DNA of 64,000 bases. It comes from Candidatus Thalassospirochaeta sargassi. Lineage in GTDB: Bacteria > Spirochaetota > Spirochaetia > UBA9216. A program made the position numbers and the translations under genes. The notes under the pieces were generated by a model. The model was not told the DNA's origin, made no database searches, and was given only the letters and a program-made list of their open reading frames with translations. This document shows positions 1 through 7,831 of this stretch, one piece after another (the first letter of the stretch is position 1; every line of letters starts with the position of its first letter). Where the stretch lies: assembly GCA_028532855.1 (NCBI GenBank), contig JAQQAL010000007.1, forward strand, positions 1-64,000, in the 5' to 3' direction.

Positions 1-186
1 TTCTGTTTCTGTTTCTGTTTCTGTTTCTGTTTCTGTTTCTGTTTCTGTTTCTGTTTCTGTTTCTGTTTCTGTTTCTGTTTCTGTTTCTGTTTCTGTTTCT
101 GTTTCTGTTTCTGTTTCTATTTCTGTTTCTATTTCTGTTTCTATTTCTGTTTCTATTTCTGTTTCTGTTTCTATTTCTGTTTCTAT
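1..186. repeat. Hexanucleotide tandem repeat, 31 units
   Basis: Thirty-one consecutive 6-base units run from the left edge; the array may continue beyond it. Units are TTCTGT with interspersed TTCTAT variants, the variants gathered at the inner end (from about position 115). On the minus strand the units read ACAGAA or ATAGAA, which in the open frame gives Thr-Glu or Ile-Glu. A change by whole units would alter length but not frame. Confidence 0.97.
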
Positions 187-347
187 TTCAGGTTGTTCAC
201 CAGAACCTGGTAATAATTTAGATAAGTCTATAATGTCTGAATCAGGTACGGATTCTTCGGCGGGTGGATTATCTAAAGTTTTTTTTTTGTGTCTTCTATC
301 TGGAGGGCCCTCGATAGAAGGCCTCCATTAAAATTTGCATTACTCAT
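1..347 (-). CDS. Acidic Thr-Glu repeat protein, partial, apparent -1 frameshift at an A10 tract
   Basis: An ATG at 345-347 overlaps the stop codon of the upstream acidic protein (TAATG). Its frame runs only 24 codons to a TAG just after an A10 tract (279-288). The -1 frame, entered if one A is re-read or added, then stays open to the window edge: a short stretch ending in PGSGEQPE, followed by a long Ile-Glu/Thr-Glu repeat. I find no ATG, GTG or TTG in that second frame upstream of the tract, so a shift at A10, a sequencing error, or decay of the gene are the ways to explain it. The protein continues off the left edge. Function unknown; the composition is as acidic as that of its neighbour. 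Confidence 0.5.
293..320. repeat. Inverted repeat before the A10 tract
   Basis: A perfect 8-base inverted repeat (CTTCTATC at 293-300, GATAGAAG at 313-320) encloses a self-complementary GAGGGCCCTC core. In minus-strand mRNA the hairpin lies 5' of the A10 tract and inside the short reading frame. It is not a normal terminator: on the minus strand it is followed by A residues, and on the plus strand the T tract lies before it. Confidence 0.6.
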
Positions 348-2929
348 TACTGATTTAACCCCAATTCATCGAATAATTTTTTATATACATCGAAATGTTC
401 GGATTTCGCGAATTCCTCAATCTTATCATTAGGAAGAGATTCAAGAAGGTGATCCATATAGGATAATACGGATTTAATCTCAGTTTTCAAACCATCGGGT
501 AGGTTAGAGAGCGCATCGTCATCGGATGATGTTCTTTCATTTTCAACCGATGAAACAGAATCATCAAGTGAAATAGATTCACCGTCAAGTTCAATTTCAT
601 TTGTCAGGTCAGAAAGATCATCTTCAATTGAAGGAGCGGGCTGTGAAACTCCTTCTTCTTCCACTGCAATATCATCAAGTGAAGCAGCGTCGAAGGTAAA
701 GTCATCATCAAGAGAAAGTTCATCCTCAGGAATTTCGAGACTCATACCGGAATCTAATGAAGGTGCATTATCAGCTGCTTCATCAAAGGTTACATCACTG
801 AAGGATACGTCATCCAGGGAAAGCTCTTCTTCATCAATCGAATCTTCAAAACCTTCGAGAGTTAGATCATCAGAGTTGAATCCTGCTGGCTCATTATCTG
901 CTATCACTTCAGAAGAATCTTCTTCCACAGCAGAATCCTGAGGAAGAAAATTTTCATCAAGAGAAAGTTCTTCTTCGAGGCTTAGATCTTCAAGATTGAG
1001 TTCTTCTTCTAACACTTCTTCATCTACTGCAATATTTTCAAGTACAGTATCTTCCTCGCCGGCTTCCTGTACTATAGAAACATCATCTATATCAAGTTCT
1101 TCATCAATAGGCTGGCCGTCAATGGTTACATCGTCAAGAACAAGTTCGTCCTCTACTGCGGTTTCTTCGTCGATACTGATGTCTTCAAGGCCAAGTTCGT
1201 CCTCTTCAGAAGGTTCTTCGTCGATACTGATGTCTTCAAGGACAAGTTCGTCCTCTACAGCGGTTTCTTCGTCGATACTGATGTCTTCAAGGACAAGTTC
1301 GTCCTCTTCAGAAGGTTCTTCGTCGATACTGATGTCTTCAAGGACAAGTTCGTCCTCTACTTCGGGGTCCTCTACAGCGGGTTCTTCGTCGATGCTGATG
1401 TCTTCAAGAACGAGTTCGTCCTCTTCAGAAGGTTTTTCGTCGATACTGATGTCTTCAAGAACGAGTTCGTCCTCTTCAGAAGGTTTTTCGTCGATACTGA
1501 TGTCTTCAAGAACGAGTTCGTCCTCTTCAGAAGGTTCTTCGTCGATATTGATGTCTTCAAGGACAAGTTCGTCCTCTACAGCGGGGTCCTCTAAAGCGGT
1601 TTCTTCGTCGATACTGATGTCTTCAAGAACGAGTTCGTCCTCTTCAGAAGGTTCTTCGTCGATACTGATGTCATCAAGGACAAGTTCGTCCTCTACTTCG
1701 GGGTCCTCTACAGCGGGTTCTTCGTCGATGCTGATGTCTTCAAGAACAAGTTCGTCCTCTACAGCGGGGGCCTCTAAAGCGGTTTCTTCGTCGATACTGA
1801 TGTCCTCAAGGACAAGTTCGTCCTCTACAGCGGGTTCCTCTACATCAGTATCTTCCTTGTTAAAACCGGAAAGTAGTTCTTCTGTGTCGTTCTGGTTGAA
1901 ATCTTCAGTCAAAGAATCATCATTGAGGAGGGCTTCAACATCGCTGTCGGTTATTTCTTCTGATGCAAAGGGTTCTTCAGGCTCGGCATCTTCGAAATCA
2001 AGATCAATTAATGAAGTTTCTTCAGTGTTCTCTTCGAACCCGGCTAAAGTATCTTCTTCAGGGGCTTCAGAAACCATTCCGCTTTCTTCGGTTATGTCAG
2101 CTGTGTTGAGAATGTTGTCAAGTTCATCTCCTGTGAGGGCAATGGTTTCATCCTCATCATCTTCAAAAAAGCCTGTAGAATCGTCGGTCGCAGATTCTTC
2201 TGATACAGGCGCTGCTGTTTTAATGGTCGAAAGTTCATTTTTCAGATCAGAAAGATCATGTTTTATGGAAAGAAGTTCCTCTTCAATTTTTAAAAGTATC
2301 GATTTTGAAGAATCGCTTTCAAGATCATTTTCAGAAACTGTACTGGTAAATGATTCTACATTTTCAGAGATGTTGCTCTCAACATCAGCTAAATCAGCTT
2401 CAAGTGCGTCTAAATCATTAAATTCAGGTTCTTTGACAATATCGATTTTATCGTCTACAGGTTCTTCATCAAAATCTATATCGGGTAGGTGAGAACCGTC
2501 ATCAAGTGAAATGTCTTCAAATGATTCTTCATCAATAATTGTGGATTCTGATTCTGCCTCGGGGAGACTGGTATCTTCAAAATCTTCGAGGATGAAATCT
2601 TCACGAAGTTCTTCAGACTCGATCCTATCAGCGTCAGAAATTTTCTCCGAATACTCTTCTGATTCTGATTCCTCAAGTGAACCAAGAAGTTCTTCTTCTT
2701 CTTCAGTCAGGAGTTCATTTTCATCCGAATCAAAGTCGTCTTCTATATCGAGATCTTCAAGTGCAAACTCTTCATCTCTATTCTCTGCGTCTGTGATGTC
2801 TTCTGGTCCAGTCTTTACCCAGACACCGTATTTTTCAAGATCACTATCACTCTCTTTGGGATCTATAGTTGTATTAAAATCATCGTCAAGCTCATCAATA
2901 GATAGATCAATATCATCAAAAGCGGCCAT
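347..2929 (-). CDS. Very acidic repeat-containing protein, function unknown
   Basis: An 860-residue protein dominated by Asp, Glu, Ser and Leu, with no signal peptide and no transmembrane segment, so probably cytoplasmic. Residues about 360-600 are a degenerate tandem repeat of the type EDELVLEDISIDEE, in units of roughly 13-23 residues, with linkers alternating between AVED, PSEE and PEVED forms. A coiled-coil-like stretch lies near residues 210-240 (LLKIEEELLSIKHDLSDL). The last 55 residues differ in style and look folded (helical, containing SLPNDKIEEFAKSEHFDVYK), so they may be the conserved functional part. The start is supported by GGAGTG just upstream. The next frame begins at its stop codon. 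The Ser-rich open frame on the other strand is an artefact of this composition. Confidence 0.85.
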   Translation of the reverse strand: MAAFDDIDLSIDELDDDFNTTIDPKESDSDLEKYGVWVKTGPEDITDAENRDEEFALEDLDIEDDFDSDENELLTEEEEELLGSLEESESEEYSEKISDADRIESEELREDFILEDFEDTSLPEAESESTIIDEESFEDISLDDGSHLPDIDFDEEPVDDKIDIVKEPEFNDLDALEADLADVESNISENVESFTSTVSENDLESDSSKSILLKIEEELLSIKHDLSDLKNELSTIKTAAPVSEESATDDSTGFFEDDEDETIALTGDELDNILNTADITEESGMVSEAPEEDTLAGFEENTEETSLIDLDFEDAEPEEPFASEEITDSDVEALLNDDSLTEDFNQNDTEELLSGFNKEDTDVEEPAVEDELVLEDISIDEETALEAPAVEDELVLEDISIDEEPAVEDPEVEDELVLDDISIDEEPSEEDELVLEDISIDEETALEDPAVEDELVLEDINIDEEPSEEDELVLEDISIDEKPSEEDELVLEDISIDEKPSEEDELVLEDISIDEEPAVEDPEVEDELVLEDISIDEEPSEEDELVLEDISIDEETAVEDELVLEDISIDEEPSEEDELGLEDISIDEETAVEDELVLDDVTIDGQPIDEELDIDDVSIVQEAGEEDTVLENIAVDEEVLEEELNLEDLSLEEELSLDENFLPQDSAVEEDSSEVIADNEPAGFNSDDLTLEGFEDSIDEEELSLDDVSFSDVTFDEAADNAPSLDSGMSLEIPEDELSLDDDFTFDAASLDDIAVEEEGVSQPAPSIEDDLSDLTNEIELDGESISLDDSVSSVENERTSSDDDALSNLPDGLKTEIKSVLSYMDHLLESLPNDKIEEFAKSEHFDVYKKLFDELGLNQ
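1131..1848 (-). repeat. In-frame tandem repeats inside the acidic protein gene
   Basis: About 15 imperfect units share the core GTCGATACTGATGTCTTCAA plus a GACAAGTTCGTCCTC or GAACGAGTTCGTCCTC block. Unit length varies in multiples of three (the PSEE type is 51 bases), so gain or loss keeps the frame. Adjacent copies are nearly identical (for example 1432-1530), which points to recent unequal recombination or slippage. Confidence 0.9.
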
Positions 2930-5995: not shown

Positions 5996-7831
5996 ATGAG
6001 TATACCTTTAAGAAGTAACGATACAACACAGGGCAGACGAATGGCAGGTGCGCGCAGTCTGTGGCGTGCAAACGGAATGAAACCCGAGCATTTTGGAAAA
6101 CCGGTGATAGGTATCGCCAATTCATTTACGCAGATGGTGCCAGGACATGTACACCTTCATGAAATCGGTCAGAAGGTCAAAAAACTAATTGAATCGAAGG
6201 GCTGCTTCGCGGCTGAGTTTAATACAATCGCAATTGACGACGGAATAGCCATGGGACATACCGGAATGCTGTATTCTCTACCGTCGCGTGAACTTATAGC
6301 GGACAGCGTTGAATATATGTGTAATGCGCATCGAATTGACGCCCTGGTCTGCATAAGCAATTGCGATAAGATTACCCCGGGTATGCTAATTGCTGCCATG
6401 AGACTGAATATTCCCGTTGTGTTTGTTTCAGGCGGGCCTATGGAAGCCGGTGATATCGCCGGCAAACCTGCTGATCTTGTTGATGTAATGGTAAAAGGCG
6501 GCGACGACAGTGTCAGCGACGCGGATCTTGCGGCATACGAAGAATCAGGCTGTCCCACATGCGGTTCATGTTCGGGAATGTTTACTGCAAACTCGATGAA
6601 CTGCCTTAATGAAGCGTTGGGTCTAGCCCTGCCTGGTAACGGTACGGTTGTAGCAACTCACAGTAACCGCTTAGGCTTGTTTGAGCGAGCAGCAGAGCTG
6701 ATAGTGGAGCTTGCAGACAGATATTACAATAAGGGTGACAAATCGGTCCTGCCTAGGAGTATTTGCACAAAGGCTGTTTTTGAGAATGCAATGTCGCTTG
6801 ATATAGCTATGGGCGGCTCGACTAATACAGTGCTCCATCTCCTGGCTATTGCCAATGAGGCTGGAGTTGATTTTACTGTTGAAGATATAGACAGGCTATC
6901 TAGAAAGGTTCCCTGCATTTCGAAGGTTGCACCGAATTCAAGCTATCACATTCAGGATGTTAACCGTGCCGGCGGTATTCTGGGTATTCTCGGTGAGCTT
7001 GACAGGGCCGGGCTTATTGATACAAGTGTAGGCCGTGTTGATTTCGGAAGCCTGAAAGATGCTCTGGATTATTATGATATTATGCGTCCCGGACATAGCG
7101 AAAAAGCTGATAATCTGTATAAGAGCGCGCCAGGTAATATAGGGCGTAACCTGGTGATGGGTTCTCAGTCATCATCCTACAAGGCTCTGGATGACGACAG
7201 GGCTGGTGGTTGTATAAGAAGTGCTGAAAACTGTTATTACCCCGATGGTGGACTTGCAGTACTTTTTGGAAACATTGCTGAAAAGGGCTGTATTGTCAAG
7301 ACTGCGGGTGTGGATTCTTCTATTTATCAATTTTCCGGTACCGCAAGGGTGTTTGAAAGCCAGGAAGAATCATGTGACGGTATTCTTGACGGTGAGGTTA
7401 ATGAGGGAGACGTTGTAATTATCCGTTATGAGGGCCCGAAGGGGGGGCCGGGAATGCAGGAGATGCTTTATCCTACTTCATATCTCAAGTCTAGAAAAAT
7501 CGATAAGCACTGTGCGCTTTTAACTGACGGCAGATTTTCAGGCGGCACGTCAGGTCTTTCAATTGGACATGTTTCACCGGAAGCGGCAGCCGGCGGGGCT
7601 ATTGCGCTTGTAGAAAGTGGAGATACAATTGAGATCGATATTCCCAACAGAATAATTAATCTGGCTGTCAGCGATGAAGTCCTTGCAAAACGAAGAGCTG
7701 CTGAAGAAGACAGAGGGAAAGATGCTTTTACGCCAAAAAAACGGGACCGGGTTATATCAACTGCTTTGAAGGCCTATAGTATATTTGCGACATCTGCTGA
7801 TAAGGGTGCTGTGAGGGTACTTCCTGAGTAG
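5996..7831 (+). CDS. ilvD: Dihydroxy-acid dehydratase
   Basis: 611 residues, close to the usual IlvD length. The enzyme dehydrates 2,3-dihydroxy-3-methylbutanoate and its ethyl homologue to the 2-oxo acids of the valine, isoleucine and leucine pathways, using an iron-sulfur cluster and Mg. Visible signatures: the N-terminal [32 protein letters not shown] and [20 protein letters not shown] with cluster cysteines, and [20 protein letters not shown] near the C terminus. The ATG at 5996 is chosen because an AAGGAG precedes it and the family begins here; an upstream in-frame start would add an 18-residue tail. No other branched-chain gene is present in the window. Confidence 0.97.

Follow-up and report, generated by a model that had tools for sequence, protein, structure and literature searches.

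To our knowledge there are few cases of conserved programmed slippage other than those in mobile elements and viruses, and dnaX is the textbook example from bacteria. Slippage of the polymerase depends on the length of the run and ignores codon phase; for a ribosomal slip seven A's suffice, and a stimulator is usual but not obligatory. The homopolymer tracts of flagellin-modification genes in Campylobacter jejuni vary in length in the DNA itself. As a mechanism, slippage is already known from dnaX, type III secretion genes, tssM and IS elements. It yields products of two lengths in spa13 and tssM (PMC5009743; PMC4256274), and efficient transcriptional slippage in vivo has been described for runs of nine (PMC5009743; PMC1088944). 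We found no report of the gene analysed here, or of a slip site spanning a class of spirochaetes, in the open-access literature, supplementary tables aside. The gene family and its breadth appear to be new, and the family appears unusual both in this breadth and in the presence of both polarities.

The locus lies at the edge of the window, the 64,000-nucleotide stretch of Candidatus Thalassospirochaeta sargassi DNA that was analysed. All of its features are read on the minus strand:

347..2929, minus strand: upstream gene, found directly before the slip gene throughout the class; its product, an acidic repeat protein of 860 aa, has the conserved C-terminus SYMDHLLESLPNDKIEEFAKSEHFDVYKKLFDELGL.
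273..347, minus strand: leader ORF of 24 codons, MSNANFNGGLLSRALQIEDTKKKL followed by a stop, with a start that overlaps the stop of the upstream gene (TAATG) and a conserved GLLxRA motif.
293..320, minus strand: sequence that forms a hairpin on the 5' side of the run in the RNA, shared by genus relatives and not class-wide.
279..288, minus strand: A10 slip site, where an additional A in the mRNA, or a shift of the ribosome by -1, would join the leader and domain frames.
1..278, minus strand: -1 frame past the run, an acidic spacer TLDNPPAEESVPDSDIIDLSKLLPGSGEQPEIETE... leading to the domain, open to the window edge and going on in contig C25.
1..189, minus strand: (GAAACA/GAAATA)n array coding for (ET/EI)n, an in-frame acidic linker (31.5 copies of TTCTGT by TRF), with the contig break inside.

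The leader ATG at 347-345 overlaps the TAA stop of the upstream gene, and the leader ends with a TAG at 275-273, right after the A10 run at 288-279. These coordinates confirm the original prediction of a short, TAATG-coupled frame that stops behind an A10 run. The -1 frame was said to be open through a hexamer array of 31 units up to the window edge; this is also the case, with a match of 93% over the array at 1-189. Within the upstream acidic protein, a 51-nt tandem array encodes VEDELVLEDISIDEE-type repeats (window positions 1134-1844), and a 498-aa plus-strand ORF at 996-2492 is simply the complement of the low-complexity region of this gene.

Window position 1 is the start of contig C7 (G000:C7), so that the window edge is a contig end, and the 31.5 copies are the part of the array on the C7 side. 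The genome has the array at one further place only, the extreme end of contig C25, where about 20 further copies (G000:C25:83391-83511) continue in matching orientation and in the same frame. From there the ET frame runs into EDLPDSDEMGIFEEIDVMDEL... and the conserved domain, followed by two PF01973 genes. We infer that C7 and C25 carry a single gene with the A10 run near its 5' end, split between the contigs because the repeat was not spanned by short reads. Relatives have other acidic linkers or none, which rules out the array as a part of the switch. This comparison marks the array as a lineage-specific acidic linker outside the putative conserved device.

Of 60 close relatives, 20 have the domain, and a profile of it matched 127 of the 394 genomes in the class. 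In 103 loci, the window included, the beginning of the gene could be read. Forty-three of these have a run of at least nine A's and the domain in the -1 frame (slip-dependent, state S; 21 genera, 16 families). Eight, from four families, have such a run with the ATG in frame (state T), and 49, from 14 families, have no run of at least nine A's and one continuous frame (state C). The remaining three were unclear, two owing to N gaps and one lacking a clear start. The run is A10 in 39 of the slip-dependent genomes, A12 in two, and A9 and A11 in one each; their domain frame is always -1, and the other non-zero frame is never used. A run of at least nine A's (A9-A12) sits at the frame junction of all 43 slip-dependent homologues, whereas 49 of 49 homologues without such a run are continuous (Fisher p ~1e-20, to be read as an ordering rather than a probability, as the sequences are related). 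That the same run recurs in the same place in 16 families argues that the layout is beyond chance.

The position of the homologues is beyond doubt because the C-terminus of the upstream gene, with the consensus SYMDQLLESLPEEKIQEFARSEHFEVYKKLFEELGL, stands in front of nearly all of them. Most of the assemblies surveyed are metagenome bins; named assemblies from independent projects, scanned with this conserved C-terminus, give the same picture. On a tree of the homologues, used only for the clustering of states since its deep forks are weak and its long branches meet, the states change 15 times against a mean of 37.7 after shuffling. Six loci of the Treponema lineage are in state T, with a run of A10-A12 and the ATG in frame. 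In most state T homologues of this lineage the run is followed by KKK[NT]GLL or KKKNSLL, and slippage would therefore shorten the product. In Brucepastera parasyntrophica (L164; NZ_CP084606.1, ~6140-6600), an A9 run precedes a -1 frame that is open for 109 aa and then broken again; this homologue looks either decayed or doubly recoded.

We used ten disjoint pairs of slip-dependent relatives to compare substitutions by codon position. Before the run, positions 1, 2 and 3 of the ATG frame carry 65, 63 and 142 substitutions (third position, 142/270). In the spacer after the run, the positions of the -1 frame carry 21, 26 and 82 (82/129), and 19, 20 and 52 (52/91) where the tail of frame 0 still overlaps. 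The third-position excess passes from the ATG frame to the -1 frame at the run, which indicates that translation changes frame there. The length of the run is identical within all ten pairs. In the GC-rich families f14 and f41, AAA makes up 0% and 9% (few codons) of the Lys codons in the domain part, and A10 is kept.

Exact A10 runs were counted genome-wide in two sets of genomes around GC-rich slip-dependent members, chosen for high GC. The run in the slip gene is the sole exact A10 of the assembly in eight genomes from four families (f41, f40, f14 and f8) and one of two in three further genomes; other slip-dependent genomes hold 3-6 such runs and the window's own genome 12. Among the A10 runs taken from relatives for comparison, seven are outside the slip gene and one (L238) is within it. 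One of the eight, G013, is a single-contig genome in state T; since its sole A10 also lies inside the slip gene, both states seem to keep the run.

The codon-position test and the constant -1 sign in 16 families show coding upstream and downstream of the run, in frames offset by one and conserved between species. Together, the shared layout across families, the frame-specific substitutions and the sole A10 runs indicate that the junction is a selected, conserved frame transition rather than an error, a pseudogene or a phase switch. Independent assemblies of 16 families agree on the sign of the shift, which rules out assembly error as the only cause; for the family, the codon-position constraint on both sides of the run likewise rules out a pseudogene. 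The proposal that programmed slippage joins the two frames is strongly supported by this conservation of run, sign and codon positions across families.

A second A10 in the same genome (G000:C45:7487-7498; L234, run at 1502-1511) interrupts a tyrosine recombinase that looks to be of the integron type. Its 310-aa ORF reaches the run and ends there in SALAKKK and a stop; the catalytic C-terminus (HTLRHSFATSLIEAG...) is encoded in a different frame. The break may reflect slippage, phase variation or decay.

The leader motif MGLLx[KR]A or a close form is present in 42 of 42 slip-dependent relatives, 8 of 8 homologues in state T and 43 of 49 in state C. Its homology to the beginning of the continuous proteins argues that the leader is the N-terminus of the same protein rather than a separate gene. 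An arrangement of two genes, in which a small translated leader ORF is coupled to a downstream domain ORF that starts by itself, is hardly credible, even though a start codon of some kind is in frame in 20 of 42 slip-dependent relatives and the window's own gene has an ATG after the array. The latter also limits the original prediction, in which the -1 frame had no start of its own: this holds inside the window, but an in-frame ATG (MGIFEEID..., L013:15361) is found beyond the array on C25. In the other 22 of 42 relatives, however, the domain frame has no ATG, GTG or TTG before the run or from the run to ten codons into the domain, and a restart cannot replace the slip there. Immediately behind the run, the spacer codons are under constraint in the -1 frame, and where a lineage lacks the run, leader and domain form a single frame. 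Homologues that lack the first frame and have a start of their own for the second, which had been named as evidence against a joined gene, did not turn up; every slip-dependent homologue has the leader. The run had also been suggested to be a phase-variation switch, a contingency locus in which gain or loss of A's in the DNA turns the GAF/GGDEF-like protein encoded by the domain part on or off. The suggestion is in keeping with the place of the homopolymer, in the coding start of a gene with maf-like neighbours, and a homopolymeric-tract gene is described as modifying the flagellin glycan in Campylobacter (PMC3068675). Nevertheless, 39 of the 43 slip-dependent genomes have exactly A10 and the domain out of frame, the sign of the frame break never changes, and no lineage has scattered ON and OFF lengths; run length did not vary between these 43 genomes in step with such states. 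Genomes with a run and an in-frame ATG cluster by lineage, unlike ON states, and in genus g8 both A10 and A11 are in frame through compensating changes, which argues that the frame is selected rather than toggled. We consider phase variation very improbable.

As to polymerase or ribosome, the run starts in all three codon phases (26, 10 and 7 of the 43 slip-dependent genomes). No downstream structure that would stimulate the ribosome is consistent across the slip-dependent relatives (mean z -0.16), and a Shine-Dalgarno-like sequence, which as a stimulator would lie 10-14 nt upstream, occurs in a minority of them at varied distances, with no conserved element. In the window, the hairpin noted immediately 5' of the run is strong: the 45 nt upstream of the run have an MFE of -18.8 (z -4.3). 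It is weaker in two genus relatives (z -2.0 and -1.4) and does not extend class-wide (mean z -0.38). Slippage of the polymerase can be mediated by a stem-loop (Penno et al. 2015, as cited in PMC5009743). A length of A9-A10 agrees with the threshold published for slippage by RNA polymerase (PMC5009743; PMC1088944). Runs of 9-12 A's in any phase with no consistent stimulator favour slippage of RNA polymerase, which would most likely be the mechanism at the A10 run. The competing mechanism is programmed -1 ribosomal frameshifting on A_AAA_AAN within the run, by which both DNA and mRNA would stay A10. Every run, in all phases, contains a slippery heptamer X_XXY_YYZ, the sign of the shift is always -1, and A_AAA_AAG is a strong bacterial slip site (PMC5009743). 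In genes of Borrelia burgdorferi, A/T runs are not depleted, which was read as possible suppression of transcriptional slippage (PMC1088944); we counted this finding, as well as the A_AAA_AAN inside A10, against the polymerase. Yet the runs retain at least nine uninterrupted A's whatever their codon phase, although seven would be enough, and they do so even where a genome avoids AAA; neither an upstream Shine-Dalgarno sequence nor a downstream stem-loop is conserved, which lowers the case for the ribosome without closing it. Ribosomal frameshifting is in our estimate unlikely, with an appreciable chance of being correct.

The domain part has no match to a Pfam or NCBIfam family, GGDEF included. 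Its AlphaFold2 models show a GAF fold (pLDDT 91.7; Z 14.7, rmsd 3.3 over 158 residues to the PtsP GAF domain, 3ci6_B) and a GGDEF fold (pLDDT 91.0; Z 9.9, rmsd 3.5 over 126 residues to DgcZ, 4h54_B). The catalytic GG[DE]EF motif is absent from the consensus of the domain alignment. By these models the domain part is predicted to be a GAF and degenerate GGDEF-fold protein of the signalling type. In the window's own genome, the two genes downstream belong to PF01973 (MptE-like; E 1.2e-22 and 1.2e-30), and the second of them, on C25, has a Maf N-terminal domain in addition. PF01973 genes also adjoin the homologues in five further loci, and two Maf-like genes follow the slip gene in the neighbourhoods checked. 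Flagellin glycosylation is established in Treponema denticola (PMC9481697), and the gene order would suggest a role of the slip gene in flagellin modification.

Slippage is not needed in 49 of the 100 classified relatives and is therefore not essential to the function of the gene. With half of the family doing without it, its value must come from dosage or from the leader peptide rather than from domain activity as such. The comparison shows one gene in two frames, and we think it probable that a polymerase slip on A10 gives the full-length protein and controls its dosage. RNA polymerase would slip on the A10 run and add an A in a fraction of the mRNAs. The unslipped message would be translated into a leader peptide of about 15-90 residues and the +1 message into the full-length GAF/GGDEF-like protein. 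In this way the slip could keep the protein to a small and constant share of translation, in an operon that also encodes two Maf-type flagellin-modification glycosyltransferases. A few lineages would have re-set the frame; in these, the long form would come from the unslipped message and the short form from slippage. We infer that both products may matter. It is also conceivable, although rather doubtful, that the slip is regulated, with the +1 share set by the state of the cell (nucleotide pools, temperature, polymerase speed) and the leader competing through GLLxKA for the same partner. The run would then set the amount of the GAF/GGDEF-like protein and hence the level of flagellar glycosylation.

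If polymerase slippage for dosage control is correct, the locus would be a second chromosomal gene family with a slip site that is kept, lost and re-phased across a class, and is often the sole A10 of a GC-rich genome. The family would offer a natural data set on the rise and reversal of recoding. Standard gene calling would split or truncate the slip gene and hide the GAF/GGDEF-like part of a probable flagellin-glycosylation operon.

The encoded protein is most readily compared with PelD, the receptor of Pseudomonas aeruginosa composed of GAF and degenerate GGDEF domains, which has the same domain order and folds (Z 8.6, predicted model). Unlike PelD, to which it has no detectable sequence relation, the protein lacks the GGDEF motif, no c-di-GMP site has been established in it, and no membrane part is seen. 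The tract itself resembles those of Campylobacter jejuni, where Cj1295 and the maf genes combine homopolymers with flagellar glycosylation, in or beside the genes concerned (PMC3068675); here, in contrast, the tract stays at A10, with the same frame in every case. Transcriptional slippage in genes for envelope apparatus would be shared with the type III secretion genes spa13, spa33 and mxiA of Shigella and with tssM of Citrobacter rodentium (PMC5009743; PMC4256274). While these cases are known from one or a few species, the present site is found repeatedly within a whole class of bacteria. dnaX of Thermus thermophilus and Chlorobi is alike in its 9-10 A's, the change of frame by one, and a long and a short product, and both polarities, with either the long or the short form made by the slip, occur within one gene family as they do here (PMC3711429; PMC5009743). 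The two genes are unrelated, however, and the short product here would be a mere leader of 15-90 residues, with the slip giving or removing a whole folded protein.
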